In this document: in pieces, positions 7,166 to 56,962 of the stretch
Position numbering within the stretch: the stretch's first letter is position 1
Layout: each line of letters begins with the position of its first letter
Origin: Scilla litardierei
Taxonomy: Eukaryota; Streptophyta; Magnoliopsida; Asparagales; Asparagaceae
DNA: 64,000 nucleotides
Assembly (NCBI GenBank): GCA_030789695.1
Contig: CM061130.1
Coordinates: forward strand, 17,478,561 to 17,542,560
Reading direction: 5' to 3'
Position numbers and translations under genes: made by a program
The notes under the pieces: model-generated
Database searches by the model: none
What the model was told of the DNA's origin: nothing
What the model saw: the letters and a program-made list of their open reading frames with translations, nothing else

Positions 7166-7634
7166 AGGCACCTAAGCCCAGCACCAGGGCCTAGGCGCCC
7201 CAGGCCAAGGCGCGCCAGGGCCTAGCGCCCAGGCCCCTGGGCTAGGCGCCCAATGCCCAGGTATGCCTGGACCGGGTGACCTAAACCCGGGCACCTGGGC
7301 CTGGCGCCCAGGCCCAATTCGGCCCATTGGTAGGTCACATGCCTAGTTTGGGCATGGGTAAGGGGCTATTTTGGGACTTTTGGGTTTCTCTCTATTAAAA
7401 ACCCTTTTAAATAGGTTTTCTGAACCCATTTGGACTCCGATTTGAGTGTGGTTTTCTTTGTAACTTTCACATGAAAATCCTCTTCCATGTCTATGCCTTT
7501 ATATAATAAATATGCTCGCAAACAATTTGCGTAGTATTTAAATACTATTGCATCAAATGAAATTAAACACACATCATTAATAAAAATACATTTGCATCAA
7601 ATACAGATGAACTGAGGGCATACATCCCTCAACA
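7166..7634 (-). repeat. E3 3' LTR, truncated
   Basis: It matches 53360-53864 throughout, including GC-rich CCAGG/GCGCC repeats, an ACCCTTTT...AATAGGTTTT stretch, and the end GGGCATACATCCCTCAACA. The rest of the LTR was separated by the E2 insertion. Confidence 0.75.
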
Positions 7635-8183
7635 TCTCCCACTTGCACTCCGGATCATTTATCCAGAATTCAAAAGCTATCGGCAAACTCTTTGCAGTTT
7701 TATGTCTCTGGTATCAAATGCATTTTCTCCCTAATTTCTACCTATTACTTAACAAAGGTCTCACTCTGTGTGAGACCCTACAGCATAACCCTACTACATG
7801 TGGGGCTCGAAACCCCAGACGGCAGTGACCACGAGCAGCATGTGTAGTCCCTGTTTCGGTAGCATACTTATGTGGTTAACTTATCGACATGAGTATTGTC
7901 GGGACCACCCTGATTGTGTCCGTGATGAATACAGCAGTTTTAGTCTCTTTGTCAAAACTATGCCGCTTAGTCAAACCTAGGGTATGGTGAACTATCAACC
8001 CTACTAGCTTGAAATTGGTTAGTCTCAATCGATCTTTAGTCAAATAATGTTGGACTTCTTCCTACTTACTCTGACCAGAGTTTTCACTAAAGATCGAACT
8101 AACACTGCGACACTAACTCCCTATAAACTGGAGAGACAAATCCTCTCTTGGTCATTACTCTCCTCGCACGCTTCGAGTTTCAT
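7635..8183 (-). other. E3 interior, 3' end
   Basis: It begins with the minus-strand polypurine tract next to the LTR. The remaining 540 bases have no conserved reading frame that I can identify. It stops at the E4 insertion; TTCAT at 8179-8183 pairs with GTCAT at 48157-48161 as an imperfect target duplication. Confidence 0.55.
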
Positions 8184-9780
8184 TGACTACCCATCCGTTT
8201 GACACGCAACCAGGACGGGGATACTAGAATTAGAATTAATAAACTGCAAGCGCATGGTGTCGAAGTGTGGCTTGGGGGTCGATCACGGGGAGGCGTGTGT
8301 TGTACTTGCAAACATTCAGGAACCGGACCACTCGGTGGATGAGCTACCTATTCTCGATTGGTTATTATGATTGTAAACTAATAGAACAGATGTAAAAGAT
8401 AAAAAGGCAACCTTGGACTTTGGCTTCCGCCCTAATCATGGATTCTCACTATTACGGTCCAAGGATATGAATATGACCGAATGCTAGGGTTTGGCGATGA
8501 GACATTACCTCTAAAAGTGGTACTTAGCGTCCCATAGGCCTGATATTTCGGTCGATGCCCAGGATGATACGCTAGGTCTACCCGGCTTCGGATGATGGGC
8601 ATTCCCATGTCCAACACCATCCGACTCCGGGAGCACTGAGTTCGCAACGATCGCTCCCAACATTTCATCCAAGCCGTTTCCACGTGCAAGGACTCAATGT
8701 CAACGCTAGGGGGTGAGCTATGGCTAGAGAATCAAACTCCCATTTTATTTCCTCTTGACCCAACGGTCAAAGGCGGTCTTTTTCCCGCCAATGACAATGA
8801 AACGCCCCCACATAACTATCAAAATCCCTAGATACAATCGGATCCCTAGACCTATGGCCGTTCTAGGAAGAACCCACGAAGGGGCTTCCACCAATGTCCT
8901 AGATTGAAGAACTACTCACTAAACATGGTAGCAAATACAATAACAGAAGATATAGCCATCAGAATTGAAATCAAGCAATTGTTCATTGTAGCAAATAGAA
9001 GCATAAACACAATATCAAAATATGAGAACGATCAAGGAACTTACACTAAGTGTTAAGTTGAAGCCGCTGAAAAATCCCTTAAACAGCTTAAAAAGTGGGG
9101 ACTCGTTTCTGGAAAAACCTAGCACTATTTATACAAGTGGGCAAGATGACATGGAATATTCCCACAAAAAGACAAAAACAGATACTCACCCGATCGGGTG
9201 AGACTTCACCCGATCGGGTGAAGCGATGGAAGAATATGTCTTCAGCTCTGATAAATCTCACCTGATCACTGAACCGATCGGGTGATTCTTAGATTTCTTG
9301 AGCTTGGGAAGCAGCAGCAGCTGACCCGATCCGTTGAAAGTGCCAACCCGATCGGGTCACAATACATGACCCGATCGGTTGACAAGTCAACCGACCGGGT
9401 GGGCTTTGGCCTTCAAAACTGCCCTCTGTCATACATCCACCCGATCACTGAACCGATCGGGTGAAACAGTCTCTTTTTCAGCACTGACACAGGCTGCATG
9501 ACCCGGTCGGGTGGCTATTCCACCCGATCGGTTGAGAGCTGATACATAGTCATCTATGACGAATGGCTCTCGGGATCTCGTGCGACACTTCACGTTGCTC
9601 CAGGGACTCATGATGTTGGCCTTATATGTCTCCTGCGCTAGCAATGTCTTGCAAATACACATAAACTCAACGAAAGTAAAATGAAACTAAAAACACAAAG
9701 AAACGGATACGAAATAACGAAAATCGACGAAAAACGACGGAGAAGACGTGCGTGAATATATAAAATATAAACACACGTCA
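8184..9780 (-). repeat. E4 3' LTR
   Basis: It starts TGACTACCC and ends ACACACGTCA on the + strand and matches 46544-48156. CACCCGATCGGGTG palindromes lie at 9187-9535. Stem-loops lie at 8524-8658, e.g. CGGATG/CATCCG enclosing ATGGG-CATT-CCCAT, and GGGAGC/GCTCCC. Confidence 0.88.
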
Positions 9781-19344: not shown

Positions 19345-22211
19345 GGTTTTGTTGGTGGCCCACGCAGGTCTGTCTTGCAACTGCGAATTATCGGAACAAC
19401 GATAATAACTATGGAATGTCCATTAAATAAATTGCAACATCCGAGTCATAAGACTTGAGTCTAGTCGTTTTCATATGTCACTAGGTGGTAAGAAGACTTA
19501 GTTAGACGTCTGAGCTTGCTAGTTAGAGGTTCCTGATTGTTAGTTAGACTCCCTGCTAGGAATTGATTTAATCGTCTTAGGAGTTACCTTAGTGGTTCTT
19601 GTCTAACTCTGACCATATTAGACTTCTAGAATTTCTTTAGTCGTTCACTTGGGTTCATCGATTTCTGGCCAAGCTGAACGCATTTCATTACCGTCTAGCT
19701 CCTTAGAAAGTCTTAGCGTTTAGTTTCTTAATCTTAAGTTGATCGACCTTAGGAGTTTTCCCGTAGATTTTCCCAGGTCATACCCTAGGCGTATTTATGT
19801 TTTGATCATCCGACCATTTTCCTTGCCTCGATTCACGAGATCGCCTCATGACGATCGTCGTCAATTTTCGAACCTCTCCGTTACAAATCTTGAATCTTCT
19901 GAAAGTTATTTTTCGATTTCCCTTATTGAAAGTTTTCGCTAAGTTTACATTTTATTTTAAACCCTCTACGTATATATTTTTAAATTTAATTTTTTCACTA
20001 TTCGATTGAGTTAAAATCCTTTCGTAAATTTTGGAGTCTATTGGTTAAATTTTTTTTTATTTCTATCTCGTAGCGCATTGCTAACCAATATTTCTCGTAT
20101 TTTGATTTTAAACCCTATTACTATTTTGATAGTTCGATATACCATCTTTCTAAACTACGAAATTCATTTTATCCTTTTACTATATATACTTTAGGATATC
20201 TTCCAAGATAAATAGAATTTTAATTATCTTATATATATATATTTGTCCTAGATACGTTGTACCCGTACTTTAAAACCCTTGTATAAAACAGTTTCTTTTT
20301 GGCAAATCCTGGTTCCTCTTAAAGTAGTTTCACTATTGATTATTTTAAATTTTTCCCTAACTTAAAGACTTTGAAAGCATTTAACATGAGCCTAAATTCT
20401 TCAGTTAAATTTAATTCTTCGAATCTCGAAACTTTTGCCAAAATTATTAAATTATTGCTGCATAGCATTTTCTAACCAATGTCCTTAATGTTCGTGTAAA
20501 TGATTTACTTTCCTCCTGATAATTTTATATAAGCCAATAAACCATTTTCTCTTATTATGTATATTCGACTCAAACTTGTTCCGAACAACTTGTTTTATCA
20601 ATCTCCAAATATTTTTATACAGATGAGGACTCTAACTTTTGAAGTACAACAGTTTTCAAATTTCACGTATTTTAGCTTATGTTATTTACACTATTTTCTT
20701 TCTGTATCCTATAAGAGTATCACTACATCTCCCTTTCCTCTACCTAAATATTCACAAGTGAGTCGTTGTTTCACCTAACCAAGCTGTCTCCTTGTATTCG
20801 TCCTATCTGAACTCGTGCTTATCGATCCTTCATTCGTCACGCTTTCGACCTCGATCTCCCTCTATTACTTAGGATGTAGTGCTCGTCAATGACAGTGTCA
20901 ACTCTAATTTGTTAGTAGGCCCTTGGACCTTTGTGATGTTGTCGTGGTGCATGTACCTAAGTTGAGTATGTGGACTTGAATGAGTGTGCTCCCCTATAGT
21001 ATATTAATGTTTGCCTATTGTGTGATATATACATACTCAGAGTTATTCGTGATGTTATGAAGTTGTTTGTGTGTTAGTATTTATAGATATGTGTGAGGAT
21101 AGCTATACCACTCTAGGGGCGTCTGTGTGTATAAGAATCAGCGTTGAAATATCTAATGAGGTGTATGTAGTTGGAGATACTTATAATGGTTGAAATAATA
21201 TGTTGGTAAAGATATGTGTTTGATAGGTGTGATAATAATAGGTGTACGTATAGATAAGTGGGTAGGTCTATTATATGACCTATATGTTAGTACGTGTGAG
21301 TATGTGCTCGTACGTAGATACGTATTGTGCCTAGACGTAAGTAGTTATGTATTTGTTGCATGAGTATATATGTGATATACATATGGTAATAGGATTATAA
21401 TTTTGATTGGTATTGCTTGCTTTTATAGGATGTTGCATACGTGTATACCATGAGGTATACACGACTATTGCATATCTTAACTAGGTATGAAGTAGATGTG
21501 TTAGTATACTAATTATAGGTAGTAGGATATGGTGTGAATATATGTTCTACATGTGTGAGACTATACTGTGAATGTATGCATTAGGGAGGGTATTATAATT
21601 ATACGTGTGCTGATGTCTGTATTATTATTATGGTATATAAAGTAATTGAACTATGTGGGTGTTACCTGACTAAATATTAAGTGTGATTGACATATGGTAT
21701 GTATATGGTTATATTGGTAGATGTGTATATGTTGGAGTGGTATTGGTATAGGTATAAATACCGTGTTACATATATAGAGTATTTTGATATGTGTTTCGAG
21801 TCTCACTCAAGCTTGAGTGGGTATACTATAAGTATCTTGTTGCATATGTATGTGGTTGCGTGTAGTACCATGAATATAGCGATGGATGATGTATGTATAG
21901 TGATAGGATTGTTTGAGCCTGGTTGTGTTACGAACATGATTGTGGGTCGCTATACCAGTATATAGTTATCTGTATTGGTGACTATGGTATGTGTGGCGTG
22001 TCGTGAATATAGTTATAGGACCGTATGTGATGTGAATATATGGTGAAATATTTGCATGCATTGGAATGACTAAATAATTGTGAAATTATAGTAGTAGTAA
22101 GTGTAACTTAGATATAATAACATGATTGAATGTTGAGTGGCGTGACTACATGTGTTGATGTGTTTGGTATTGGATGTATACTAGGAAATATTAGGGAGTA
22201 GTATACACATA
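19345..22211 (+). other. E5 interior, left part
   Basis: 2.9 kb of AT-rich sequence with no coding frame of note. The right half (about 20900-22200) is rich in TATGTG/TATAC words. I could not recognise a primer binding site at the start. ACATA at 22207-22211 is the target duplication of E6. Confidence 0.6.
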
Positions 22212-22574
22212 TGATCGCGCCCCGGATACACGTCCCGAGGCGACGGTTGTAGTTTTACCGCAAGCGCACGGTATGGTGGCGAGCGGGTATCGAACACAGG
22301 GAGGACGAATGACCGTGCTTGCTCCTGATCAACCTGGCTATTTAGGAACAGAGATAATTGCCTTGGGCGATCCTGTCACAATCGTCAGACAAATTTGCGA
22401 AATATCAAATCAAATAAAGAACGTCTAGGGAAAGGGGAATCCCCACTACTCACCGTATTTCATAAATGTGGTTCGCCGGTATCGAAATCGCTAGAATGAG
22501 AATTTGGATGAACTAGTTGCAACTAAATGTGGAACCAAGCTCACGCTCTCGCGCTGTTGCCGGTCTATAACTAT

Positions 22575-22878
22575 CCTAGGTTTGGGTCCAATCTCTTGCA
22601 AACCCTAGCCTAGGGAAGCTAGCATTAAGATCAACATCATCGTCCAATTGCGCACCGAGCCCAATCTCTTGCAAACTCGGTCCACAATCTAAATTAGGAT
22701 AGTTCCTACCCGTCCAATCTCTTGCAAACGGGTATCGGCACGGAATTGCAACCGGAGGTCCTAGTATCGGTCCAATCTCTTGCAAACCGATACTTCGAAA
22801 ATCCGACTCCAACCCAATTCGGATTTCTAGGGCTTCCTATCAAATTGGGATCCAATCTCTTGCAAATCCCAATTGATA
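22575..22878 (-). promoter_or_regulatory. E6 LTR array of five constant-loop hairpins
   Basis: The loop CCAATCTCTTGCAA (+ strand) occurs five times. Each copy is flanked by different but complementary arms: GGGT/ACCC with outer CCTAGG/CCTAGG (22575-22614); ACCGAG/CTCGGT (22654-22681); TACCCGT/ACGGGTA (22707-22734); AGTATCGGT/ACCGATACT (22763-22794); AATTGGGAT/ATCCCAATT with outer TATC/GATA (22838-22878). Identical arrays lie in the other LTR (offset +10176). They sit in the 3' part of the LTR in sense direction, where R/U5 would be. Confidence 0.85.
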
Positions 22879-23355
22879 TGAATACCTAGCTATCCGTAGT
22901 AATTCGATCCCAATCTAATCCCTAATAACAATCCTAGCTCAATTTCTACCGATTCAACACAAATAGGAAATAGGGCTTGTAGGGTTCATCCCCACGCCCC
23001 GAGACGTGGAGACTACTCACAAATCATAGCAATAGCACAAAAATAATCAATGAAATAGGCAATGTAATTCATCACAACAATGATATAAACAATAAAAATA
23101 GAGTTTTTGGGGAAGAGAAATGCAAACCAATGTAGATCTTCAATTAATCCAACAAAAATCCAAGTTTTTCTCTTCTCCAATCACAATTAATAAAGCTAAA
23201 AAGTAGACTCAAAAAGCTGCAAAAAATCTGAGAGATAGCCCCCAAAACTAGGGCAAAAACAGAGCTTAAATAGCCCCAAAAATCGTCCAAAAATCCTGAC
23301 CAAAACGCCCCTGCACAGCCTGTTTTCCGCAAATTTCGCTACAGGCAGCGCATCG

Positions 23356-23730
23356 CACTCGGCCGAGTGACAAAAGTCGCTCGGCCGAGTGAAAACCCTG
23401 TCATTTTCCAGTAAGTTGTGGGCTTCAGGGGTCTTCAGTTCGGGGGCGGCTCGGCCGAGTGAGTTGTCGTCACTCGGCCGATGGCTTCACTTCACTCGGG
23501 CGGACGGGATTTACCACTCGGCCGAGTGGGTCTTCTGAAGCTCAGATGGCCGAAAAACAGTAACTTCGATATTCTGGAGGGGCTTCGTCTGGGCGCCACT
23601 CGGGCGGACGTGGTATCGTCACTCGGCCGATGTGGTCTCCGTCGCTCGGCCGAGTACACATGGAAATCGTGTCTGAACGGGTCGGCCGAGCGGTGTCTCG
23701 CTGGTCGGCCGAGTGGCTCCTCCACTCGGC
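23356..23730 (-). repeat. E6 LTR array of ACTCGGCCGAGT palindromes
   Basis: About ten full or near copies of CACTCGGCCGAGTG within 375 bases, 300-675 bases from the sense start of the LTR, in the probable U3. The motif returns upstream of ORF3 at 28800-29130. The copy at 33532-33906 in the other LTR is equivalent. Confidence 0.85.
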
Positions 23731-24031
23731 CGAGTGGGACACAAAAAATGCCCATTCTGCTTATTTTGGCCTCCTCGTCGCTCCTGCGACGTCCATTCTT
23801 CTTTCGCTCCTCTCCAACAGCAAAATACCCCTCGGGGAGGTCGTCGGTGGCCGTCTAGATTACGCGCATCTCGAGATCACTCCTAATCGCGCCAAATCAC
23901 CTGAAATGCGACAAAAACAACAAATCGTGAAAAGCATCGCAATATCGTCGATATATCGTGAAAAACATGATTTGGGCGATCCAAATGGCATGCAAACATG
24001 CGGAAAAAAGGTGTAAAATAAGGAGTGATCA

Positions 24032-24070
24032 AAATCCCCCTAGCTTGCCTCTTACTCGTCCTCGAGGAAG
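24032..24070 (-). promoter_or_regulatory. E6 polypurine tract and PPT-proximal hairpin
   Basis: Minus strand: CTTCCTCGAGGACGAGTAAG (CTCG-AGGA-CGAG with outer CTT/AAG), then AGGCAAGCTAGGGGGATTT abutting the LTR start TGATCAC. Primes plus-strand DNA synthesis; the hairpin role is unknown. Confidence 0.75.
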
Positions 24071-25620
24071 ATAAGTAAAAAGCGAACCCGGTGGATTCGG
24101 AAAACGAAAACGGCGAAAAAATGAAAAACGAAGAAGAATGAAAACCAAACGAAAATAAAGAAAGAAAGAAAGAAAGAAGCGAAGAGGAAAGATGCTAGAT
24201 CATTTTCTCAGGACGTGGGTTTCACTTACTCTTATAGCATGCACCGAACGAGAAATACATGTCAAAGAATCTCATTTTGATATCATAGTAGAATAGTGCA
24301 AGTAGAAAATAGAAAACCCACGAACAACGGTATGATCATGAAAAACGGAATGATTTTAAAATTAACATCGCCTGAATCATCTAAAGCGGTATACAAATCT
24401 CAGATCACACACTTTTCAATTGAACGCTTTCTATCTGGAGTATAAGAGTATCACATCATAGAATAGAGAGAATAGAAAAGTATGGATTTCATGAAATGAA
24501 TGCTAGGCTTAGATTTCTGGATTTCGTAAAGCTAGAAACAATCTCACCGAGTATAGAATATTACTTAGCCTAGGTTGTCGTGCAATGTCAAGTAGTCGCT
24601 CTCTCACACATCAATGGATCTCCTCCCCCAAGCTTATCTATAAGCGTGGTGGCACAAAAATATTTACATCCCCATTTTTATATAGCTCCAAAGGCAAAGA
24701 AGAGAAAGAAGAAAGAAAGTAAGCGAGATGGGATCTTTTATTGAGGATTTTTCCTCTTTTCTCTTTTTTTTTCTTTTTTTTTATTTTTTTTATATACAAT
24801 GATCCCAACTCAAAGAGAGATAATGATATACAAGAATGTTCTTCTCTCTTTTATTATATTTTTTTTTGGAATAAGAGATTTGGAGCTAGGAATTAATAGC
24901 GGGGGAAATGCCATAAAATAGAATCACTAAGGGGAGATTCACCAATGATTTTTAAAAGTAGAGAAATGATGTTCAAGATTTGTGGAGAAAGAAATAAATA
25001 TAACTCTCGGCTCACTCTATAAGACATGCACGACAACTTCAGCATGGTAATCTAATCTACTCAGTTTCGATCACAAAAAAGCTAACTAATCCAGATATAT
25101 CATAGCTAATCATCATTCAATCATCCGGAAGTGAAGTGTACAATTCATGCATATAGAAGTGATAAAGGAAAAGAAATCAGTACTCCAGATATATGCATTC
25201 AATGCGTGAATCTTGGTGTGTTTTCTGTGATAGCATACATATGAATATTCAGGCTCAGCTAATAATAAAATTTCATCCATTTTCATGAGGAAAAAGTGTG
25301 GGTTACTACTCCTAAATGCAAAGCAAGTCATAGCATATGATATCAGAAATGAAATCTAAGACACGACAAATATAGCATGCATATAGAATAAGCTAACTCC
25401 ACGTAGACATCATCACAGAAAATTCATCTCTAGCATGAGATGAAAAAGAAAGAAGTAAAGATAAAAGGAAAATAGAACTATGCAATGCGGCACACAGGAA
25501 AGTAAGGAAAACGTGATGCATGGCAAAACAAAAGGAAAATAACGAAAAATGAGTGCAAAAGTGAAAAGCGGTGTGAAAAACTGAAAATAAAGGTGGCAAA
25601 TCGAAAAAGAACGTGAGAGC
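24071..25620 (-). other. E6 non-coding 3' region
   Basis: About 1.5 kb, A-rich on the + strand, with no conserved frame. It contains low-complexity (GAAA)n near 24160-24180 and T-rich tracts near 24750-24870. No gene recognised. Confidence 0.6.
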
Positions 25621-25660
25621 TCACTCCCCCAAGCTAAACGGCACAGTGTCCTCAATGTGC
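25621..25660 (-). promoter_or_regulatory. E6 hairpin plus internal purine tract (module H2)
   Basis: Minus strand: GCACATTG-AGGA-CACTGTGC (8 bp, one mismatch), then CGTTTAGCTTGGGGGAGTGA. It lies 3' of ORF3 and its purine tract GCTTGGGGGA resembles the element's own polypurine tract GCTAGGGGGA. Confidence 0.55.
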
Positions 25661-26043
25661 AAAGTGTGGCACATAGAGAGACAAGAAATGTGAGGGGCAA
25701 GTGAGGATGCATGCATGATGGGAAGGAAGAAAAAAAAAAGATAATGAAAGGAAAGAAAAAAAAAGAAAGAAATGAAAATATGATGCGGAAATGATGCATG
25801 CACAAACAGGAGTGATATGAAAATAAATACGGCACCAAAAACGCTCCCTCTCTCCCTAAAAGATATATATAGATGTGATCAAAATGAGAATCCCAAGTAG
25901 ATATGATATGATATGCACAAAAAGATATGATCAAAAATATAATCCCAAAATAAGTGAGAGGAGGGGGGGTGGACAAAAGTGCATCAGGACCCAGCAGAGA
26001 CGGGCAGCACAACGGCAGGAATGGATAAAGGCATCAAGAGTGC
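25661..26043 (-). other. E6 spacer between ORF3 and module H2
   Basis: 383 bases of A/G-rich + strand sequence, non-coding. It is the 3' flank of ORF3 with nothing else recognised. Confidence 0.55.
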
Positions 26044-28233
26044 CTAAGAAGGCGGTGCCGCGCCGTCTCCGTCCTGAGGCGGAGGGGGTGGTGGTAGTGG
26101 TGTAGGCTGCTGAGCTGGGGTGGGCGTGGAAGTGGAAGCAGGTCTAGTGTGTGTGGAAGTGTGAGTGGGAACCTGCTGGGTGGGTGGTGGTACGCGCGGA
26201 AGACGCTCTAAGATCTGTGTCAGGCAGTAGTGGATCTGAGGGATCAGCTCGAAGCGTCCAGCCATCGTAGAGACGGTGGAGGACAGGGTCCGAAGGTCTC
26301 CTCTAAGACCACTCACCGCCACCTCAAGAGCACGTATGCTCTGCAGTACAGTGTCGGGTGGGGGTGGTGCAGAGGGACGCACCGGTCTAGGCTGCGCAGG
26401 GCGAGGCTGGCGTACGCGAGTGGAGTATGTAACGGGCTCAGCAGGGAAGGGGACAAAAGGTGCCGCGCCTGGAAATGTGGGCCGGGCCTCAGTGTGAGGC
26501 CGGGGCGGGCGGTGAGAAGTGGAGGCAGCGGCAGCGAAAGAAGAGTACAAAAGCGGCTGCGAGGCGGCTAGAGAGGTCGGTGGCACAGAAGTGTGGACAG
26601 ACGCCACGACGCTCTCAGAGAATACGGCAGCTGTGGAGACAGAGGACTCTACCGCTGGGGTGGAAGTGTGTGGACCGAAAGGCGCAATCCCAGCGGAGAT
26701 CATGCTAGCCATGGTCTCCACGACCGCGGCGAACGAGGGCTCTCCACTCTCAACAAAGGTCTGCGGGCGCTCGGGGAGAGCGGAGCAAAGAGGCTCCACG
26801 GACAGAGGGCCAGAGGTGGCAGCGGGAGTGGTGGGGACAGCCTCGGAAGTGGTGACAGTGGTGGAAGTGGGCTCAGCAAGGGTACTCTCGACACTGGCAG
26901 AGGTGGGGACAGAAGTGTCAAGAGCGGCGGAAACGTCAGGAACAGGCTGAGGGGCTACAGGGTCGACGGGGTCGGCAGGGGGTGCAGCAGGGTCTGCGGG
27001 AGCAGCCTGGGCAGCGTGGGCAGCGTGGGCCTGCTCGGCCTCCTCGGCCTCGAGCACGTACGCAGCGGGGATGAGGACATCCATCACTGGGAGCCAGTCA
27101 ACGTGGGCTGGTGCAATCTGGGTCCGAGCTGGGCTCGGGAGAATCATGTGGTCGGCACCGAAAGGGCCGTGCAACCAGACCCAGTGACGCTCACCATGCG
27201 GACGCATCATCTTCATCCGGGCCATAACATCTATCGACAAAGAGGTGGGGCCCGGGACGCGTCGCAAGTCGTCGGGGAAGTCCTCGCCGGTCATAAGAGC
27301 CAGCAAGGTAATCAGGCCACCGCAGCATATCGGTGAGCGAGCGCCCACCGATACAATGATGCGGTCTAAGTACCATGCCGCGATATCGATCACGACGGCG
27401 GGGACAAGCTCATCTCCATCCCTAGATAGAGCTCTGGGACGTGTCATCGCATAGAGCATGTAAAGATCTGGCGTAGACATCGTGCCCGGCTCATATCTGG
27501 CCAAAAATGTCGTCGCCATAAGGCGCTGGGCAATACGAAGGCAGGGATGTACGATGGCCGAGGCCTTGGCCCTACTAGGGTCAAAGGCGGCGTGGAGACC
27601 CGTGATACGTGCCCAGAAGGCACCTGCGTCGAAAGAGGGTGGGGGGATATGTGTGGGGCCATAACCGCGATCGGCTCCGGGGACTGCGGGCCAAGAGAAA
27701 AATGCTCTCATCATATCGAGAGTGACCTGGCACTCTCGATCCATGAACCGGAATGAGCATCCCTCATCGGTCCGGGCGATCGAACTCAAAACCTCAAGTG
27801 TCGGACGGGTAAAAGTATCCGCCGACACCTGGAAAAAATCTCGCCAGCCCACGTTGTCGTACAACGTGAGCATCCCCTCAAGTACCCCCAGGCGTCCTAG
27901 GTCAGCGAGGTGTGCGAACCTGGAGGGTACGATCGAGCGCTGGGAGATACGCTCGAAGACGGCGCGGTGTGCGTCGTCTCGGAAGGTAATCCCGAGCGGC
28001 CCGACCAGTGGAGCCGGTGGTGGTGGCTGTGGATCGGCGGGGAGAGGCTGTGCGGGCTGTGGGTGCACTGCAGGCTGTGCGGGGTGTGCGGGGCCTGCAG
28101 GCTGTGCTGGGTGGACGGCGTGTGTGGGGGAAGGAGGAGGAGACTCTTCCGCCTCGTGGGCGGGGCCAGTGTCATCCGACCTCTTCCGCTTAGCGGAAGG
28201 TCTCCTCGTCCGAGGCCGTGTCCGGGGCGGCAT
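26044..28233 (-). CDS. E6 ORF3, intact plant retroelement ORF3 protein
   Basis: About 729 residues from the ATG at 28233-28231; the frame is open upstream to 28404, but I prefer the internal Met because it starts the basic stretch MPPRTRPRTRRPSAKRKR, matched in E1 and E4. Residues 1-20 look like a nuclear localisation signal. Residues 35-80 are Pro/Ala/His-rich repeats. About 81-345 is the conserved core ('putative plant transposon protein' / Athila ORF type: AKASAIVHPCLRIAQR, ICCGG, PDDLRRVPGPT). A long Pro/Ala/Ser/Thr-rich tail follows, with a coiled-coil-like stretch near 620-670. No signal peptide or membrane segment is visible, so it does not look like an envelope protein. A pyrimidine tract ending CGCGCAG at about 28413 could be a splice acceptor. 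Function unknown. Confidence 0.8.
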   Translation of the reverse strand: MPPRTRPRTRRPSAKRKRSDDTGPAHEAEESPPPSPTHAVHPAQPAGPAHPAQPAVHPQPAQPLPADPQPPPPAPLVGPLGITFRDDAHRAVFERISQRSIVPSRFAHLADLGRLGVLEGMLTLYDNVGWRDFFQVSADTFTRPTLEVLSSIARTDEGCSFRFMDRECQVTLDMMRAFFSWPAVPGADRGYGPTHIPPPSFDAGAFWARITGLHAAFDPSRAKASAIVHPCLRIAQRLMATTFLARYEPGTMSTPDLYMLYAMTRPRALSRDGDELVPAVVIDIAAWYLDRIIVSVGARSPICCGGLITLLALMTGEDFPDDLRRVPGPTSLSIDVMARMKMMRPHGERHWVWLHGPFGADHMILPSPARTQIAPAHVDWLPVMDVLIPAAYVLEAEEAEQAHAAHAAQAAPADPAAPPADPVDPVAPQPVPDVSAALDTSVPTSASVESTLAEPTSTTVTTSEAVPTTPAATSGPLSVEPLCSALPERPQTFVESGEPSFAAVVETMASMISAGIAPFGPHTSTPAVESSVSTAAVFSESVVASVHTSVPPTSLAASQPLLYSSFAAAASTSHRPPRPHTEARPTFPGAAPFVPFPAEPVTYSTRVRQPRPAQPRPVRPSAPPPPDTVLQSIRALEVAVSGLRGDLRTLSSTVSTMAGRFELIPQIHYCLTQILERLPRVPPPTQQVPTHTSTHTRPASTSTPTPAQQPTPLPPPPPPQDGDGAAPPS

Positions 28234-28799
28234 ATCGGCCCCGAGCGCGCCGAAAAGTGAAAAAGGTGCGGCGTGTGCAAAAAGAGTGGAAAGAGTGTAC
28301 CAAAACACGCCGCGAGTGCTAAGCGGTGGAAGCGTGCGAAGTCCGCGCCTCCACGAAGTCCGAAACAGCCCGTAGGAGCTCCCCTGGCCTCCCCTAAGCT
28401 CCAATAAACAACCTGCGCGTGAAAAAGCGATATCACCGAGTAATAATCAAAATGTATGGAGCAATAGGGGTATAATGGATAGATATAGAAATTGATTTGG
28501 GTTAGGGGGGCGTTTAGCACATGGATCCTCAAAAAATACACGAAAAGAGGAGAAAACGGTGAAAATAAGCGAACCGGAGGTGATCGGAGACGGGGCTGCC
28601 GGCGGCGACTCGGGCGGGGTCCGGCGACGGTTGGCCGGCGGTGGCAGGCCGAGCGGCGGCGCGCGCGGGCTTGGTCGGGCGAGTGGGGGTGAGAACGAAG
28701 CGAGTTCGGGCGAGGGTAGGCGAGGGGGCGCGGGCGGATTTGGGAATTTTCGATTTCGAAATCCGCGCCCCCTTCGTCACTTATATAATAGAAAGTTAC
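28234..28799 (-). other. E6 ORF3 leader, proximal part
   Basis: Non-coding, partly very GC-rich (about 28590-28770). Apart from the acceptor-like site near 28413 I see no gene. Confidence 0.5.
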
Positions 28800-29130
28800 G
28801 ACTCGGCCGAGTGAAGTGGTCACTCGGCCGAGCGAGGCAATAGAAATTTTCTCCCCGATATCGCTTCGGCCGAGTGGCTTTGCCAGCCTCGGCCGAGTGG
28901 AGTAAGTCCATTCGGCCGAGTGACTCAAGCTACTCGGCATGACTCGCCCTAGGAGGGTATCCGTTTTACTCGGCCGAGTGAGTATATATACTCGGCCGAG
29001 TAACAGTTATATCGAAATCAAGAAAATAAACAGAGAGTTGGGTTCAGCAGACTTCCCTCGTTCGTGAGCGGCTCGGCCGGACGAACTTGTGTACTCGGCC
29101 GAGTGACTAGTATACTCGGCCGAGTGAGCC
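28800..29130 (-). repeat. E6 palindrome array upstream of ORF3
   Basis: Roughly ten copies of ACTCGGCCGAGT or close variants in 330 bases. The motif is the same as in the E6 LTR U3-like region, so ORF3 may have its own promoter built from LTR-type sites; that is inference. Confidence 0.8.
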
Positions 29131-29392
29131 TTAATTTCTGCTGTTTGCCTTCGTTTTGGCTCTAAACTCCGTCTTTCTTTCTCCAGTCGATTTCCTCCTC
29201 CTCCTGAGCGTCGAGCGCCTTCTTGGGGCGCTCCTCGTCGTCTCGTTCATCCTCCTCATGACGGATCTACCTATCTCCTCTCCTGTCAAGAAAAATCGGA
29301 CCCGTTATCACGAAATTTTTGGTCGGATGACTCAAAATACTAAAAATTTCTAAAACGAAAATAAAGAAAAAGTAAAAATAAAGCAAAAACCA
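29131..29392 (-). other. E6 spacer between the palindrome array and the double hairpin
   Basis: 262 bases of non-coding sequence. The part nearest the double hairpin is A-rich on the + strand (about 29340-29390), equivalent to the T-rich stretch after H1 in E1 (150-220). No gene seen. Confidence 0.5.
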
Positions 29393-29439
29393 TCGGGTTG
29401 CCTCCCGACAAGCGCTCGTTTTAGGTCGTGAGCTCGACC
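29393..29439 (-). promoter_or_regulatory. E6 double hairpin after the gag-protease stop
   Basis: Minus strand: H0 GGTCG-AGCTCA-CGACC (29439-29424, perfect) and H1 TCGGG-AGGCAA-CCCGA (29408-29393, perfect). It starts 15 bases after the stop codon at 29455. Confidence 0.7.
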
Positions 29440-29454
29440 CCCTATAATTTTCAA

Positions 29455-32229
29455 TCAATGCGGGATGTTTGGTGCATATGAGATGCACCCGTCGAACTTG
29501 CCGGGGAGCGCGCTTGGATTCGAACGTGGCGGCGTAGCGTTCTCCCGCGGTGGTCTCCTATCTCGAATAGTGTTGGGGGGAGGCTCCCCCAAGCTAGCAT
29601 TTGCCCCGGTCAACGGCTTAACCGGCGATGCCGATTTCCGTGCCGGCGGAGCTTTCTTTGGAGACTTTAATTTCGAGAGCTTGCAGAGCTCTCGAATCCT
29701 CGCGACATCAGCGTCGCCTTCATCTTCATCAGCGGAGAAGTCGGGGGAATCGTCTTCAATCTTTTCATCTTGGCCTAAATCCGGGCCTTCATCAAATTCT
29801 TCATCAAAAAGGGCACCAATTGAGTGAGGAATCACCTCCTCTATCACCTCATCAAGGAGGTCCATGTAATCAAGCTCCTCGTGGTAAGGCATGTGTTTCA
29901 TTGGCTTAGGAATGTGGAGCTCCACCTCGATGTTGCCGACGTTTAAAGTAAGTGTTCCTTCGCGCACGTCGACGATGACTCCGGCGGTGGCGAGGAAGGG
30001 GCGTCCAAGTATCAATGAGGTGTCTCCCTCCTCCTTAATGTCCATGATGACGAAGTCACATGGCAAGCATATTCCACCCGGGACTTGAAGTGGGATGTCC
30101 TCGGCGATCCCCACCGGCCTTGTTATCCGGCCATCGGCTAATTGAATGCGCATGTCGGTGGGCTTCAACTTTGTCCCGGTGTTAAGCCTTAAGAACATGG
30201 AGAGGGGCATGAGACTCACACTAGCCCCAAGGTCGACCAACGCCTTTTGAAGAGGCACGCCACCCAAAGTGCAAGGAATCTGAAAACTCCCCGGATCTTT
30301 AAATTTTGCCGGCTCCTTCTCTCTCTTGGTGAACCAAGAGCCCTCCTCGGCTAGCATTATCTTCTCCTTCCTTTTCCTCCCCGAAATCAAGTCCTTCAAA
30401 AATTTAGCATACGTGGGGATCTCGACGATGGCGTCGAGGAAGGGAATATTGAGGCTAACTCCCCTTAGATACTCGAGGAATTTCGCTAGCCTTTTCTCCA
30501 TTTTTGCTTTCGCTAGTCTTTGGGGGAATGGGACCGGTGGCATGAAGCGCCTTTCCTCAATTAATCGCTCCGCCCTAGATTTCTCCTTGTCTTGTGGCTC
30601 CTTCTCCTTATCAACCTCAACTACCGGCTCAACCGGCTCCAAGCTTTCCTCCACGGCCTCCTCAATAGGAATCGTGGCGGGGGTGGTGTCCTTCCCGCCT
30701 CTAGTAGTGACGGCAACTACGGCGTTGATGTGGCCCGTGTTGCCCCGTGGGTTTTGCTCCGGTTGCGCCGGCAATCTTTGAGTGTTCCGGTTGAGCAACG
30801 CTAATTGCTCCGATATTTGAGCCACTACGGTATTGAGAGATTCTTGCCCCGCCTTCAAAGTAGCATTCACCTTATTTTGCTCGACCATGAACGCCTCCAC
30901 TCTAGATTCGAAGTCGGTTCGTTGAGGAGCTTGTGGAGGGTTTTGATTTTGATTCCTCCACCCTTGGTTGTATCCGGGAGGCTTATACGGTGGGACTTGT
31001 TGCTTCGGTGGAAAGTTTTGTTGCGGAGGCCCCCTCGGTGGATAGTTTTGTTGTTGGGATGGTGGTGGTCGAGCTTGTTGAGGCGGTGGTTGTGGCGGGT
31101 TCAAGGCTCCTTCATTGTTGGCGTAGGAGAATCCCGGATGATTCCTTGCGGCCGGATTGGACCAATACCCTTGGTTCCCCGCAACATATTGTATTTGCTC
31201 CAAGGATCCTTCTCCTTGCTCTCCTCCCGAGTACATGACTTGAGATTGGTCTTGCCAATCACACATTTGGTTGGTCGGTGCGGAGGTGGATGGGCTTCCT
31301 TAGGGCTCCGTGATATATTTCTCCAATCTCTCCACCACCTTGTGGAGAGAATCAAATTTGCTCGTGAGCTCTGCTACGGCCTTCGCCTCGTAGATGCTAG
31401 TTGGCTTTAAGGAGGATGTGGAGTGTCCTCGCTCATCGCCCCACTGTTGGTTATTTGAGGCCATCTCCTCAATTTGGGCCGTAGCTTCCTCGGGAGTCTT
31501 TGACAAGATTGCACCATTCGCCGCGGCATCAATAATTTGTTTGGTCCCCGGTTGGAGACCGTTGTAGAAGCTATGAACTAGCTCCCAGTCCTCTATACTG
31601 TGGTGCGGGCATTGGTGCTGCAAATCCTTAAATCGCTCCCAAGCTTCATAGAGCGTCTCCTGTGGTCCTTGCTTGAAGGACATGAGAGCGCTCCGGATCT
31701 TCATCGTCTTGGATGGCGGATAGAATTTGTCAATAAATGCGCTCGCCAACTCGTCCCAAGTAGTGAAGACTCCGTCAGCCTGCGTCCTCAACCAATAGAG
31801 TGCCTTGTCCTTAAGCGTGAAGGGGAAGAGGCGCAGTCTGATAGCGTCGTTGGAGACCCCCGGCATCTGGAATGTGGCGCACTTTGACAAGAATAGTTGG
31901 ATGTGGTAGTGGGGGTTCTCATGTGCGTTCCCATGAAACGGGTCTTGTTGCATCAACACCACCAATCCAGTCTTTAGCTCGAAGTTCTTGTCGGCCGCCA
32001 ACCCCGGCATGGCAATGGACGAGGTGGTAGAAGAAGTCTTAGGCCGAAGCCTATCTCGAATCGAGATTATCCTTGCCATCCTTGCCGCCAATTCTTCAGG
32101 AGTTTCCGGGTTGGTCATATACATCCCTTCCGGATCTTGTCTCTTTTCCGCTCTAAGTCTCCGCGCGGTACGTTCGATCTCGGGATCAAATAATAAGTCT
32201 TCTGGGTCCGCCGTAGATCTCGTGTTCAT
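29455..32229 (-). pseudogene. gag: E6 gag-protease, one in-frame stop
   Basis: Structural protein and protease of the element. From the Met at 32229 (MNTRSTADPEDLL) the first 309 residues hold a retrotransposon gag domain (AIRLRLFPFTLKDKALYWL, WERFKDLQHQCPHH). A TAA at 31300-31302 interrupts the frame, which continues unbroken and in phase for about 614 more codons. The second part has a Pro/Gln-rich linker, the block PFLDAIVEIPTYAKFLKD, and a retropepsin-like domain with LVDLGASVSLMP and [18 protein letters not shown]. There is no RT or integrase before the stop at 29455. The TAA may be a nonsense mutation or a read-through site; only one stop and no frameshift in 2.8 kb makes either possible. 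Confidence 0.85.
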
Positions 32230-32363
32230 GCACAGGGGAAACAGAGTTTCAAAGAAATGATTAATACCGTGGAAGGGTTAGACAAGAAATAAGAAATAAA
32301 AATAATGATAATAATAAAAAGAAAAAGAATAGCTAGGGTGAAAAAGAATCAAACGCAATCGCC

Positions 32364-32381
32364 TCCCCGGCAACGGCGCCA
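32364..32381 (-). promoter_or_regulatory. E6 primer binding site, tRNA-Asp
   Basis: The + strand reads TCCCCGGCAACGGCGCCA, identical to the 3' end of plant tRNA-Asp(GUC) including CCA as I know it, six bases from the 5' LTR. The 134 bases between it and gag are the leader. Confidence 0.9.
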
Positions 32382-32387
32382 AAAACT

Positions 32388-34207
32388 TGATCGCGCCCCG
32401 GATACACGTCCCGAGGCGACGGTTGTAGTTTTACCGCAAGCGCACGGTATGGTGGCGAGCGGGTATCGAACACAGGGAGGACGAATGACCGTGCTTGCTC
32501 CTGATCAACCTGGCTATTTAGGAACAGAGATAATTGCCTTGGGCGATCCTGTCACAATCGTCAGACAAATTTGCGAAATATCAAATCAAATAAAGAACGT
32601 CTAGGGAAAGGGGAATCCCCACTACTCACCGTATTTCATAAATGTGGTTCGCCGGTATCGAAATCGCTAGAATGAGAATTTGGATGAACTAGTTGCAACT
32701 AAATGTGGAACCAAGCTCACGCTCTCGCGCTGTTGCCGGTCTATAGCTATCCTAGGTTTGGGTCCAATCTCTTGCAAACCCTAGCCTAGGGAAGCTAGCA
32801 TTAAGATCAACATCATCGTCCAATTGCGCACCGAGCCCAATCTCTTGCAAACTCGGTCCACAATCTAAATTAGGATAGTTCCTACCCGTCCAATCTCTTG
32901 CAAACGGGTATCGGCACGGAATTGCAACCGGAGGTCCTAGTATCGGTCCAATCTCTTGCAAACCGATACTTCGAAAATCCGACTCCAACCCAATTCGGAT
33001 TTCTAGGGCTTCCTATCAAATTGGGATCCAATCTCTTGCAAATCCCAATTGATATGAATACCTAGCTATCCGTAGTAATTCGATCCCAATCTAATCCCTA
33101 ATAACAATCCTAGCTCAATTTCTACCGATTCAACACAAATAGGAAATAGGGCTTGTAGGGTTCATCCCCACGCCCCGAGACGTGGAGACTACTCACAAAT
33201 CATAGCAATAGCACAAAAATAATCAATGAAATAGGCAATGGAATTCATCACAACAATGATATAAACAATAAAAATAGAGTTTTTGGGGAAGAGAAATGCA
33301 AACCAATGTAGATCTTCAATTAATCCAACAAAAATCCAAGTTTTTCTCTTCTCCAATCACAATTAATAAAGCTAAAAAGTAGACTCAAAAAGCTGCAAAA
33401 AATCTGAGAGATAGCCCCCAAAACTAGGGCAAAAACAGAGCTTAAATAGCCCCAAAAATCGTCCAAAAATCCTGACCAAAACGCCCCTGCATAGCCTGTT
33501 TTCCGCAAATTTCGCTACAGGCAGCACATCGCACTCGGCCGAGTGACAAAAGTCGCTCGGCCGAGTGAAAACCCTGTCATTTTCCAGTAAGTCGTGGGCT
33601 TCAGGGGTCTTCAGTTCGGGGGCGGCTCGGCCGAGTGAGTTGTCGTCACTCGGCCGATGGCTTCACTTCACTCGGGCGGACGGGATTTACCACTCGGCCG
33701 AGTGGGTCTTCTGAAGCTCAGATGGCCGAAAAACAGTAACTTCGATATTCTGGAGGGGCTTCGTCTGGGCGCCACTCGGGCGGACGTGGTATCGTCACTC
33801 GGCCAATGTGGTCTCCGTCGCTCGGCCGAGTACACATGGAAATCGTGTCTGAACGGGTCGGCCGAGCGGTGTCTCGCTGGTCGGCCGAGTGGCTCCTCCA
33901 CTCGGCCGAGTGGGACACAAAAAATGCCCATTCTGCTTATTTTGGCCTCCTCGTCGCTCCTGCGACGTCCATTCTTCTTCCGCTCCTCTCCAACAGCAAA
34001 ATACCCCTCGGGGAGGTCGTCGGTGGCCGTCTAGATTACGCGCATCTCGAGATCACTCCTAATCGCGCCAAATCACCTGAAATGCGACAAAAACAACAAA
34101 TCGTGAAAAGCATCGCAATATCGTCGATATATCGTGAAAAACATGATTTGGGCGATCCAAATGGCATGCAAACATGCGGAAAAAAGGTGTAAAATAAGGA
34201 GTGATCA
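32388..34207 (-). repeat. E6 5' LTR
   Basis: 1820 bp, equal in length to 22212-24031 and nearly identical. It contains the same five hairpins (about 32751-33054) and palindromes (33532-33906). Flanked by the second ACATA. Confidence 0.95.
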
Positions 34208-34560
34208 ACATATTTGTTTTGTGCGTAGGTAGTTATCTATACGTGAAGTACTAGGATTGTATTTGCTGGTGTGGACTATTTATTTGTTTGTGAGTATGTG
34301 TACCATGGTATGTAATAAGTGTTTAATAGTTATTTAAGGATGTACTGACTATATGAATGATTGAAGTACGTGTATAAATTTGACTGACTATGATAGGTAT
34401 ACGTGTATAATGTGCGTGAATATATATACATGTTCGTAGTGTTAATGTTTGAATACCTAGTGTATATATAAGCACTTGTAATGACTATACCTGGTTTGAA
34501 GTATAATGTGATATGATCGGGATAGCTACTAGTCTGGCTAGAGTTATATTTATAGTTAGA
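34208..34560 (+). other. E5 interior, right part
   Basis: Continues E5 after the E6 insertion; AT-rich, non-coding, same composition as 20900-22200. Confidence 0.6.
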
Positions 34561-46518: not shown

Positions 46519-46536
46519 TCCCCGGCAACGGTGCCA
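46519..46536 (-). promoter_or_regulatory. E4 primer binding site, tRNA-Asp
   Basis: + strand TCCCCGGCAACGGTGCCA, one mismatch to the tRNA-Asp 3' end found intact in E6 and E9, seven bases from the 5' LTR. The leader between it and gag (46370-46518) is non-coding. Confidence 0.85.
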
Positions 46537-46543
46537 TAAAGCT

Positions 46544-48156
46544 TGAACACCCGCCCGTTTGACACGCAACCGGGACGGGGATACTAGAATTAGAATTTGT
46601 AAACCACAAGCTAACGGTGTCGAAGTGTGTCTTGGGGGTCGATCACGGGAATGCGTGTGTTGTACTTGCAAACATTCAGGAACTGGATCACCCGGTGGAT
46701 GAGCTAGCATATTCTCGATTGGTTGTCAAGATTGTAAACTAATAGAACAGATGTAAAAGATAAAAAGGTAACCTAGGACTTTGGCTTTCGTCCTAATCAT
46801 GGATTCTCAATATTACGGTTGAAGGATAGGAATATGACCGAATGCTAGGGTTTGGCAGTGAGACGTTGCCTCTAAAAGTGGTACCTAGCGTCCCAATGGC
46901 CCGATATTTCGGTCGATGCCCAGGATGATACGCTAGGTCTACCCAGCTTTGGACGGTGGGCATTCACATGTCCAACACCATCCGACTCCGGGAGCACTAA
47001 GTTTGCAACGATCGCTCCTAACACTTCGTCCAAGCTGTTTGCAACGATCGCTCCTAACACTTCGTCCAAGCTGTTCCCACGTGCAAGTACTCAATGTCAA
47101 CGATAAGGGGTGAGCTATGGCTAGAGAATCAAACTCCTGTTTTATTTCCTCTTGGCCCAACGGTCAAAGGCGGTATTTTTCCCACAGATGACAATGAAAC
47201 GCCCCACGTAACCATCAAAATCCATAGATCCAGTCGGATCCCTAGACCTATGGCTGTTCTAGGAAGAACCCATGAAGGAGCTTCCACCAATGTCCTAGAT
47301 TGAAGAACTACTCACTAAACATGGTAGCAAATGCAATAACAGAAGATATAGCCATCAGAATTAAAATCAAGCAATTGTTCACCGTAGCAAATAGAAGCAT
47401 AAACACAATATCAAAATATGAGAACGATCAAGGAACTTACACTAAGTGTTATGTTGAAGCAGCTGAAAAATCCCTTAAACAGCTTAAAAAGTGGGGACTC
47501 GTTTCTGGAAAAACCTAGCACTATTTATACAGTGGGCAAGATGTCAGGGAATATTCCCACAAAAAGACAAAAACAGACGCTCGCCCGATCGGGTGAAACG
47601 ATGGAAGAATATGTCTTCAGCTCTGATAAATCTCAGCCGATCACTGAACCGATCGGGTGAGTCTTGGATTTCTTGAGCTTGGGAAGCAGCAGCAGCTGAC
47701 CCGATCGGTTGAAAGTACCGACCCGATCGGGTCATAATACATGACCCGATCGGTTGACAAGTCAACCGACCGGGTGGGCTTTGGCCTTCAAAACTGCACT
47801 CTGTCATACATCCACCCGATCACTGAATCGATCGGGTGGAACGGTCTCTTCTTCAGCACTGACACATGCTGCATGACCCGATCGGGTGGCTGTTCCACCC
47901 GATTTGTTGAGAGCTGATACATAGTCATCTTTGACAAATGGCTCTCGGGATCTCGTGCGACACTTCCCGTTGCTCTAGGGACTCATGATGTTGGCCATAT
48001 ATGTCCCCTGCACTAGCAATGTCCTGCAAATGCACATAAACTCAACAAAAGTAAAAAAGAAACTAAAAACACAAAGAAACGGATACGAAATAATGAAAAT
48101 CGACGGAAAACAACGGAGAAGACGTGCGTGAATATATAAAATATAAGCGTACGTCA
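46544..48156 (-). repeat. E4 5' LTR
   Basis: 1613 bp. It includes a perfect tandem duplication of 36 bases (47001-47072) not present in the left copy, an 8-bp stem CCTAGCGT/ACGCTAGG (46884-46937), and CCCGATCGGGTG palindromes (47583-47908). Confidence 0.88.
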
Positions 48157-52385: not shown

Positions 52386-53864
52386 TGTTGGGTTTTCTGT
52401 GTCCTTATGGCAATAAAATCGACGTTCGGCCCAAGTCGGACGGACAACGAGATCAAACAAGCAGCGGAAAACCAAATTTAGAACAATTTTAAATCAAGCC
52501 CTAAAGAAAACAAACCCTAGCCATGATCTCTATTATCCCGGGGTTGGGTCCGACCAACTCCTAAAGACAGATCTATCTAACAGTTGCAATTATAAACGCA
52601 TGAATTAATAAACTACATACCTTTCACTTCGTTTCCACAGAATACGAAGCGTTGTTTTCAGCAACATTTCTTTGGCCCCGCGTCGCTTCTCCCAAGCCGA
52701 ACCACGTCCCGAGCCGCACTTCGTCCCGAGCCGAATCGCTTTCCAAACAGCACCGTATCCCGAGGCGAGCAACACCATTGTCGCGATCCAACCACGCACC
52801 GAAGAAAATTTCACCTTGAGTGGATCCTTCATCAAGACTTCGGATCCGATCCGAACTCCTTCGTAGCTTTTCTAGAGTCCGATCAGGAGCAATGAAGAAT
52901 TTTGGGAGAAAAGAAAATATTAATTTAAGTCTGAATCCGAACGCTCAAAATTTTTTGGAGCTTTTCAGATTTGAAGACTTGGTGCGAGTTTCAAGGAGGG
53001 GGGTTGGCCCCTATTTATATAGGTGGCTGACCCCTCCCCTTCTCATCATATCTAATGTGGGACTAAAGATTTTGGAAGAAAAATTAATTAAAGTTTGCCT
53101 TTCACAAAGGCCAATCTTTAGTGAATTTTTCATCCCTCATAGTTGAGCTCCGCAAGTGATACAACCTATCAAATCGAAGAGCACTGAACGGTGAACACAT
53201 AGAAACAAACGAAAATCAATTCTGACTTCGTTTGACCCCTCAAACATCATCACAAAGTTTAGCAAAACCTCATTTTGCCGAAAATTCCAGTCGCCAAAGA
53301 GCGCATAGGGTTTCTCAAACCTGTGGGGCCCATAATGGGGCCCACCTGCCTTCTCTTCCAGCTAGGTGCCCAGGCCTGAACTGGGCCTGGGCACCCCAGG
53401 CCCAGGCGTGCCTGGGCCTAGTGCCCAGGCACCTGGATTAGACGACCCATGCCAGGCACGCCTAGGCCTGGCACCCCAGACATGGGCGCCTAGGCCTGGC
53501 ACCCGGGTTGGGCCTGGGTTCCCAGGTTTGGGCACCCAAGCCCAGTTCGGCCCATGGACTAGTCCCATGCCCATTTTGGTCATGGGTAAATGGCTGTTTT
53601 GGGCCTTTTTTGGTTTCTCTTTATTTAAAACCCTTTTTAATAGGTTTTGTGAACCCGTTTGGACTCCGATTTGAGCGCGGTTTTCTCTGTGACTTCCACA
53701 AGAAAATCCTCTTTCATTTATATGGCTTCATATAATAAATAGGCTCGTAAATAATTTACGACGTACTTAAATACTATTGCATCAAATGCAATTAAACCGA
53801 CATCCTTAATATTACAATCCATTTGCATTAAATACAAATGATCTGGGGCATACATCCCTTAACA
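52386..53864 (-). repeat. E3 5' LTR
   Basis: 1479 bp, TGTTGGGTTT...CCCTTAACA. GC-rich CCCAGGC/GCCTGGG repeats occupy about 53360-53540, also present at 7170-7320 in the truncated copy. Confidence 0.85.
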
Positions 53865-56927: not shown

Positions 56928-56962
56928 CCCCCCAACTAGCGTTTTGCTAGTCTCTAGCAAAA
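56928..56962 (-). promoter_or_regulatory. E9 polypurine tract and PPT-proximal hairpin
   Basis: Minus strand: TTTTGCTAG-AGA-CTAGCAAAA (perfect 9 bp, 56962-56942), then CGCTAGTTGGGGGG abutting the LTR start TGTGATTTGG. Confidence 0.75.

Follow-up and report, generated by a model that had tools for sequence, protein, structure and literature searches.

Five tandem hairpins with one constant GNRA-capped tip in the predicted leader of an Athila-like LTR element of Scilla litardierei

Fixed loops carried on different stems have been described in the 5' region of coronavirus genomes, where the repeated UUYYGU hexaloops of SL5 belong to hairpins proposed as a packaging signal (PMC10927501). Structured leader RNAs of LTR elements are represented by SL-C/SL-D of MLV and Psi of HIV-1, retroviral signals in which tetraloop hairpins, dimerisation and Gag binding occur in one region (PMC7599994), and cis-acting packaging regions have been described for the LTR retrotransposons Ty1 and Ty3 (PMC4974528). 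In plants, the Athila, Calypso and Diaspora elements combine long LTRs and a primer site of tRNA-Asp type with gag and protease; use of a tRNA-Asp primer has been reported for Calypso and Diaspora, and Athila and Calypso carry an extra envelope-like region (PMC1142308).

Here, an array of five hairpins is described from the LTRs of an Athila-like element of Scilla litardierei, located in a window of 64,000 nt (assembly GCA_030789695.1, contig CM061130.1, positions 17,478,561 to 17,542,560), to which all coordinates refer. Like SL5, the array presents one fixed loop on different stems in a 5' region; in SL5, two or three hexaloops sit on one four-way junction (PMC10927501), whereas the array belongs to a plant LTR and each of its five GNRA-capped tips has a rod of its own. 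SL5 may be regarded as the nearest precedent met for fixed loops on varied stems, and no relation by descent is suggested. Like the MLV and HIV-1 signals, the array is a structured leader RNA of an LTR element (PMC7599994), but retroviral psi lies downstream of the primer site (PMC3902901), whereas the array lies upstream of it, within the LTR, and would act on Gag only under the reading proposed below. That proposed role is shared with the packaging regions of Ty1 and Ty3; in Ty1, part of a pseudoknot lies within that region (nt 237-380), and the consulted sections of that source mention no repeated-tip array (PMC4974528). The host element resembles Athila, Calypso and Diaspora in its primer site, LTR length, gag and protease, but no hairpin array is mentioned in the consulted sections of the account of these elements, in whose main text the word 'hairpin' occurs 0 times (PMC1142308). 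Within the open-access literature, no account was found of a plant element with such an array, and a search for the loop in three spellings gave no match.

The host element (22212..34207, minus strand) was delimited by its LTR pair and flanks, and characterised by its coding pieces and a pol query. The 5-bp target duplication ACATA stands on both sides of the element (22207-22211 and 34208-34212), whose 1820-bp LTRs (3' LTR 22212..24031, 5' LTR 32388..34207, both minus strand) differ at 7/1820 positions. The element is young, with an insertion age of about 0.15-0.28 My at assumed plant substitution rates. The primer binding site TGGCGCCGTTGCCGGGG (32365..32381, minus strand) is of the tRNA-Asp type. 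Domain matches on the minus strand identified a gag ORF (31300..32277; PF03732, E 6e-21), an aspartic protease ORF (29455..31299; PF13650) and an ATHILA ORF (26044..28446; PF03078, E 1e-10). A stop separates the adjacent gag and protease frames (29455-32277, minus strand); in a relative, L195, a single open frame holds both domains. No reverse transcriptase was found in the element, as the pol query matched the protease region only and there was no RT domain match. Long LTRs, the 5-bp target duplication, the tRNA-Asp type primer site, PF03732 and PF03078 are all features of the Athila lineage; since placement by RT has no basis in an element in which no RT was found, it is called Athila-like only. 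A motif search found no zinc knuckle in the frames of the element; a knuckle does appear in the majority consensus of an alignment of 33 Gag sequences. In the protein collection, 120 of 1576 gag relatives were listed and had at most 50% identity; close relatives of the host element seem to be poorly sampled or left out there, and gag queries found no relatives in the viral or prokaryote collections. The sole Rfam match in the window, to snoR71 at 31595-31700 (plus strand, antisense to gag), scored 41.7 bits against a cut-off of 40 and is probably a chance match just over the threshold.

The array occupies 22579..22874 of the 3' LTR (minus strand; LTR nt about 1158-1453), where it is defined by exact tips, arm pairing, covariation and a covariance model, and its copy in the 5' LTR, predicted to lie in the transcript leader, occupies 32755..33050 (minus strand; exact tips, fold and covariance model). 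On the plus strand, the loop CCAATCTCTTGCAA occurs exactly at 22588, 22661, 22714, 22772 and 22852, and again in the other LTR at 32764, 32837, 32890, 32948 and 33028. Read in sense, successive tips (TTGCAAGAGATTGG) start at intervals of 80, 58, 53 and 73 nt, and complementary arms flank each of them. The first hairpin in sense, h1 (22843..22874, tip 22852..22865), pairs AATTGGGAT with ATCCCAATT and has the outer helices CAA/TTG, TTC/GAA and CGGAT/ATCCG; h2 (22763..22794, tip 22772-22785) pairs AGTATCGGT with ACCGATACT and has a covarying outer helix AGTCGGA/TCCGGTT. They are followed by h3 (22705..22736, tip 22714-22727; TACCCGT/ACGGGTA) and h4 (22652..22683, tip 22661-22674; ACCGAGT/GCTCGGT), and by h5 (22579..22610, tip 22588-22601), whose stem has only 4 Watson-Crick pairs (GGGT/ACCC) before a 3x3 internal loop and then CCTAGG/CCTAGG. 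All five lie on the minus strand, each with the exact tip; h1, h2 and h5 rest on the fold, the covariance model and the aligned copies, h3 and h4 on the covariance model and diverged copies.

A reading made from the letters of the window alone (hereafter the sequence-only reading) had proposed a constant loop on five different, compensated stems, and this description holds. The arms beside each loop form 35/40 Watson-Crick pairs with their own partners, against a mean of 19.6 over the 120 possible 3'-to-5' arm assignments (binomial P 1.1e-16), among which the real assignment alone reaches 35/40; copies from the genome, described below, strengthen the case. The arms had been called unrelated between copies: they are different, but not wholly unlike, sharing 27/80 positions (34%) between hairpins with the loop-adjacent base excluded. 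The contiguous pairs per hairpin number 9, 9, 7, 7 and 4 with G.U allowed. In a five-row hairpin alignment, both sides change in 8/9 stem pairs, and the covariation score was reached by 0/500 shuffles; the number of pair types, a weaker measure, was reached by 8/500. The spacers between hairpins are mostly unlike, with 1/15 spacer pairs outscoring all but 2/200 shuffles. When the window was scanned for hairpins with an 8-base loop word in common, no second group of five emerged, nor did five shuffles contain one; the only other group, of three hairpins, lies near 7200, and in a looser scan for shared-loop hairpins other groups reached three or four only. A covariance model built from the five hairpins recovered the ten hairpins of the two LTRs (minus strand, E below 1e-7) and nothing else in the window better than E 0.8, and no Rfam family matched the array above its gathering score.

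Three further structures near the tips were considered. An adjacent hairpin with a shortened loop (22799-22826), proposed by the sequence-only reading, was paired in 540/615 cells of the aligned copies with 1/8 pairs covarying; alternative helices that use the same bases pair better (0.97 and 0.96 paired; 1/5 and 4/7 pairs covarying), and the hairpin is probably not a separate unit. Downstream of h5, a candidate sixth, simpler hairpin (22543..22554, minus strand; GCGC-GAGA-GCGT) is GAGA-capped, is paired in the folds and has no UUG/G part; a tip-like match occurs at its position in 8/20 copies. A 12-nt palindrome with a TTGCAA core, TAGTTGCAACTA (22514..22525, minus strand), also lies downstream of the array and was picked out post hoc (7/1000 shuffles). 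A count of four palindromes of at least 12 nt outside the loops was discarded as an artefact of cutting the loops out.

What had been presented as a loop of 14 bases turned out, in sense RNA, to hold a small hairpin: the tip reads UUG, CAA, GAGA, UUG, G, and CAA and UUG form a 3-bp inner helix capped by GAGA, a GNRA tetraloop. The pairing probability of this helix is 0.56-0.68 in the fold of the predicted leader, and three pairs with a GNRA tetraloop arise in 0.8% of random 14-mers. The helix was followed through the host genome (3.68 Gb assembly, including one contig of 824.7 Mb), in which tip counts represent copies sharing descent and not independent events. The exact CAA-GAGA-UUG tip occurs 167,774 times, and CAC-GAGA-GUG, in which the third inner pair is changed on both sides, 32,129 times, so that this one genome contains about 200,000 intact tips; the two half-changed forms occur only 247 and 304 times, and reversed-pattern controls for the four forms gave 5, 6, 1 and 3. 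These counts show that no lineage with a broken third inner pair has spread far. Pairs of loops 67-97 nt apart were found 11,671 times (reversed-pattern control 0), the listed ones being mostly the second and fourth tips of ordinary arrays. K-form tips (3,523; most of the 100 listed read TTGCATGAGAGTGG) were set aside, CpG decay of the CAC form and U.G tolerance fitting them equally. In the viral collection, 120 contigs matched the 14-mer, and each of the 80 that were listed has one match, taken as chance; the two-loop pattern was found in 0 viral and 0 prokaryote contigs.

In the predicted leader, stem-pair probabilities are near 1, with exceptions in the outer pairs of the h1 and h3 stems, at a single mismatch in h4 and at the h5 internal loop; h1, h2, h4 and h5 cap longer interrupted rods. 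Without comparison between copies, the window sequence gives good folds for either strand (z -6.3 sense, -5.8 antisense), and its folding excess is not special by itself, 5/105 background segments (minus-strand window segments in steps of 608) being as extreme, or 6 for the other LTR copy. The strands were told apart only by comparing copies: the consensus fold of 77 arrays reaches -78.2 kcal/mol in sense versus -13.3 kcal/mol in antisense, and that of 60 arrays -89.8 versus -34.1; sense alignments with shuffled columns (12 of them) gave -26.6 (sd 4.4). The 60-array alignment has 166 G.U cells versus 70 A.C cells. Because of the sense-strand consensus fold and this G.U excess, the constraint appears to act on sense RNA and not on DNA, and the strand that matters is the minus strand instead of the plus strand on which the hairpins were originally presented.

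A TATA-like word, TATTTAA, lies at LTR nt 760 (23266..23272 in the 3' LTR, 33442-33448 in the 5' LTR; minus strand, motif search), and transcription is predicted to start about 30 nt downstream of it. Such a word was found 300-520 nt upstream of the first intact tip in 60/63 cases, which come from 62 loci with at least one locus counted on both strands and include 30 near-identical ones; in three diverged loci, two of them about 72-75% like the LTR of the host element, the distance is 357, 387 and 403 nt. The array is predicted to lie in the leader because it falls in the last third of the LTR, read in sense, and follows the TATA-like box; from this arrangement we infer the transcription start and the presence of the array in genomic RNA. 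The proposed placement in the leader stands as a prediction from this position. None of five AATAAA-like words occurs in the LTR, so that no poly(A) site could be placed and no boundary drawn between R and U5. The predicted leader extends 1190 nt to the gag AUG and contains 7 upstream AUGs.

Arrays were collected from one genome, that is from one host lineage, by tip and loop patterns, and loop conservation is overstated because the copies were picked in this way. A less biased estimate comes from h1-h3 tips in copies picked via h4 or h5, of which 45/57 are exact and 12/57 have one change (19 of the 20 copies). In one set of 13 diverged copies and in another of 20, every copy has at least five tip matches. 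A further 20 copies, on seven other contigs, were picked via a half-changed tip, a choice that works against the array reading. In relatives, h3 reads TATTCGT/ACGAATA for TACCCGT/ACGGGTA, h4 reads CTCGAGT/GCTCGAG for ACCGAGT/GCTCGGT and h2 reads TGGT/ACCA for CGGT/ACCG, with pairing kept each time, and the h4 tip reads CAC-GAGA-GUG. The only difference between the two LTRs of the host element that lies close to the array leaves a G-C pair in one and a G.U pair in the other, in the outer helix of h5. With these further copies included, five tips in order were found in 80/84 arrays (no five-tip path in L157, L231, L234 and L237), of which 77 are distinct, the other three being duplicates, with identity down to 71%; in an earlier set, such a path was found in 62/64 arrays (not in L157 and L211), 60 of them distinct. 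The 30 near-identical copies L121-L150 were left out of the covariation sets.

Changes in paired positions were then tallied by branch on a tree built from columns outside the hairpins, with a null in which substitution positions were shuffled per branch (300 trials). On internal branches, 5 stem pairs had substitutions on both sides that preserved pairing (null 0.45, 0/300 shuffles; 4 in one of two other reconstructions), as did 4 pairs of the inner helix (null 0.19, 0/300). When partners were slid by 1 or 2 positions, only 0 or 1 such changes remained. One-sided, uncompensated stem changes, which the sequence-only reading had named as evidence against itself, are present, but mostly date from after insertion: among changes that start from a pair, stems keep pairing in 51 and break it in 41 on terminal branches, versus 35 and 12 on internal branches, and for the inner helix the numbers are 11 and 25 versus 5 and 3. 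Broken pairs on internal branches fall below the null for both stems (12 vs 29.5) and inner helix (3 vs 14.2; 0/300 each). This contrast is as expected if selection acts on replicating lineages only, with small internal numbers for the inner helix. A first tally on 60 arrays went in the same direction (two-sided stem changes 5 vs 0.32; broken pairs 15 vs 25.5, reached by 3/300). A stricter covariation test over all pairs (APC G-test with a branch-permutation null) placed 1/77,028 pairs above threshold, and this was not a base pair; the few deep branches give that test little power, and its result still counts against strict significance for single pairs.

Similar arrays occur beside pol genes. 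The region L197, directly upstream of the LTR with the diverged array L185, has RT, RNase H and integrase matches, in broken frames, to the gypsy element of the window. Between the arrays L184 and L183, L194 holds pol, accompanied by an ATHILA ORF in L193 and by a copia-type gag, apparently inserted. L195, flanked by the arrays L181 and L182, represents a second pol-less type, with gag 88-96% and protease 91% like those of the window. Taking the order of parts to delimit single elements, the array would be common to the pol-less element and to pol-bearing relatives.

Other repeats were noted in the window. Many copies of the palindromic word CTCGGCCGAG lie at 23340-23760 and 33520-33940 (in the LTRs of the host element, upstream of the TATA-like box) and internally at 28777-29150. 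In another LTR pair (9150-9550 and 47600-47930, minus strand), ACCCGATCGGGT-type dyads lie upstream of a TATA box (fold z -7.4), a different word in the same layout. An LTR-like pair at 8183-9780 and 46543-48156 is about 90-92% identical, and its primer site at 46520-46536 is of tRNA-Asp type but for one mismatch; this seems to be an older element that later insertions have broken up. One of its LTR copies has an exact tandem duplication of a 36-bp unit (47001-47075), of which the 8183-9780 copy has one unit. A gypsy element with gag and pol (55045-63814) has the same primer-site type at 63798-63814, and its 5' LTR is cut by the window end; shared-loop hairpin scans did not find the five-tip array in it. 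Short palindromes around CCCAGGCC and GGCACCC form GC-rich clusters (7184-7320 and 53379-53540), which adjoin a pair of stretches that are 84% similar.

The array is almost certainly a structural RNA under selection, with a predicted place in the leader. An origin by chance or by simple tandem duplication, for which one may cite that all copies come from one genome and are related by descent, is refuted by the arm assignment, the shuffles and the branch tally, only the real assignment giving paired arms, the shuffle tests giving 0/500 and 0/300 and the spacers being mostly unlike; its probability is negligible. A source of small RNAs or a feature of the DNA (tandem CCAAT sites, cruciforms or mutation copying one arm from the other) would agree with the CCAAT on the antisense strand, and hairpin RNAs can be diced and inverted repeats can arise by mutation, but the consensus fold and the G.U tolerance are sense-specific, and the matched changes hit single pairs in otherwise conserved stems and in a 3-bp inner helix, which makes both versions very improbable. 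In Athila6, siRNA854 has been reported from the region 3' of gag/pol (PMC3276544).

The UUGCAA in each tip might support kissing contacts between two genomic RNAs, as TTGCAA is palindromic and the 12-nt palindrome downstream has the same core; dimerisation through these loops is nevertheless disfavoured because 32,129 tips read UUGCAC, which is no palindrome, with the inner helix kept, so that the loop palindrome expected of a dimer-initiation site is not kept across copies. A 6-nt palindrome moreover occurs in 13% of random 14-mers, and we consider this role quite improbable. A translation element that leads ribosomes by shunting or internal entry past upstream AUGs would suit a predicted leader of about 1.19 kb with 7 of them; long leaders with AUGs are common, however, and neither mechanism needs five identical tips, which leaves this reading improbable. 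The main rival is an export or stability element comparable to CTE/RTE, whose tips would recruit a host RNA-binding protein that exports the unspliced RNA of the element. Identical repeated sites on variable helices, and their presence in a pol-less element and in pol-adjacent LTRs, fit such a role as well as they fit packaging, and frames without a zinc knuckle favour a host partner. Packaging signals more typically sit in the leader near the primer site, which speaks against export, and we hold it to be rather unlikely as the main function.

Docking of Gag is our first choice, with nuclear export second, because a fixed tip on five changing stems, the form expected of a multivalent protein site, is found in the predicted leader of an element that would depend on the proteins of others. 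The tips would be recognised by a protein, and the array may well present all five to Gag, by which the RNA of the element would be chosen for packaging, a reading to which we give slightly less than an even chance. Each tip (an asymmetric UUG/G internal loop, a 3-bp helix and the GNRA tetraloop) would then be a weak binding site, and five together would allow strong, cooperative binding by oligomerising Gag. The stems would merely space the tips, any paired sequence being sufficient, and their sequence would be free to drift while paired because they only hold the tips apart. That the motif search found no zinc knuckle in the frames of the host element counts against Gag, since binding of the knuckle type would have to come from a partner; a pol-less element would need this mark for packing by the machinery of a pol-bearing relative.

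To our knowledge, the selection of RNA by plant LTR retrotransposons, and the use of pol-bearing elements by pol-less ones, are largely open questions. With its clear boundaries, fixed tip and changing stems, this compact RNA makes the question of packaging selection testable, and its huge copy number in one genome provides a natural record of mutations in an RNA motif. Tentatively, and with less confidence than in Gag docking as such, the array may represent the first multivalent packaging code in a plant LTR retrotransposon, in which five interchangeable GNRA-capped Gag-docking tips per RNA would be shared by pol-less and pol-bearing elements and would form the basis of cross-packaging.
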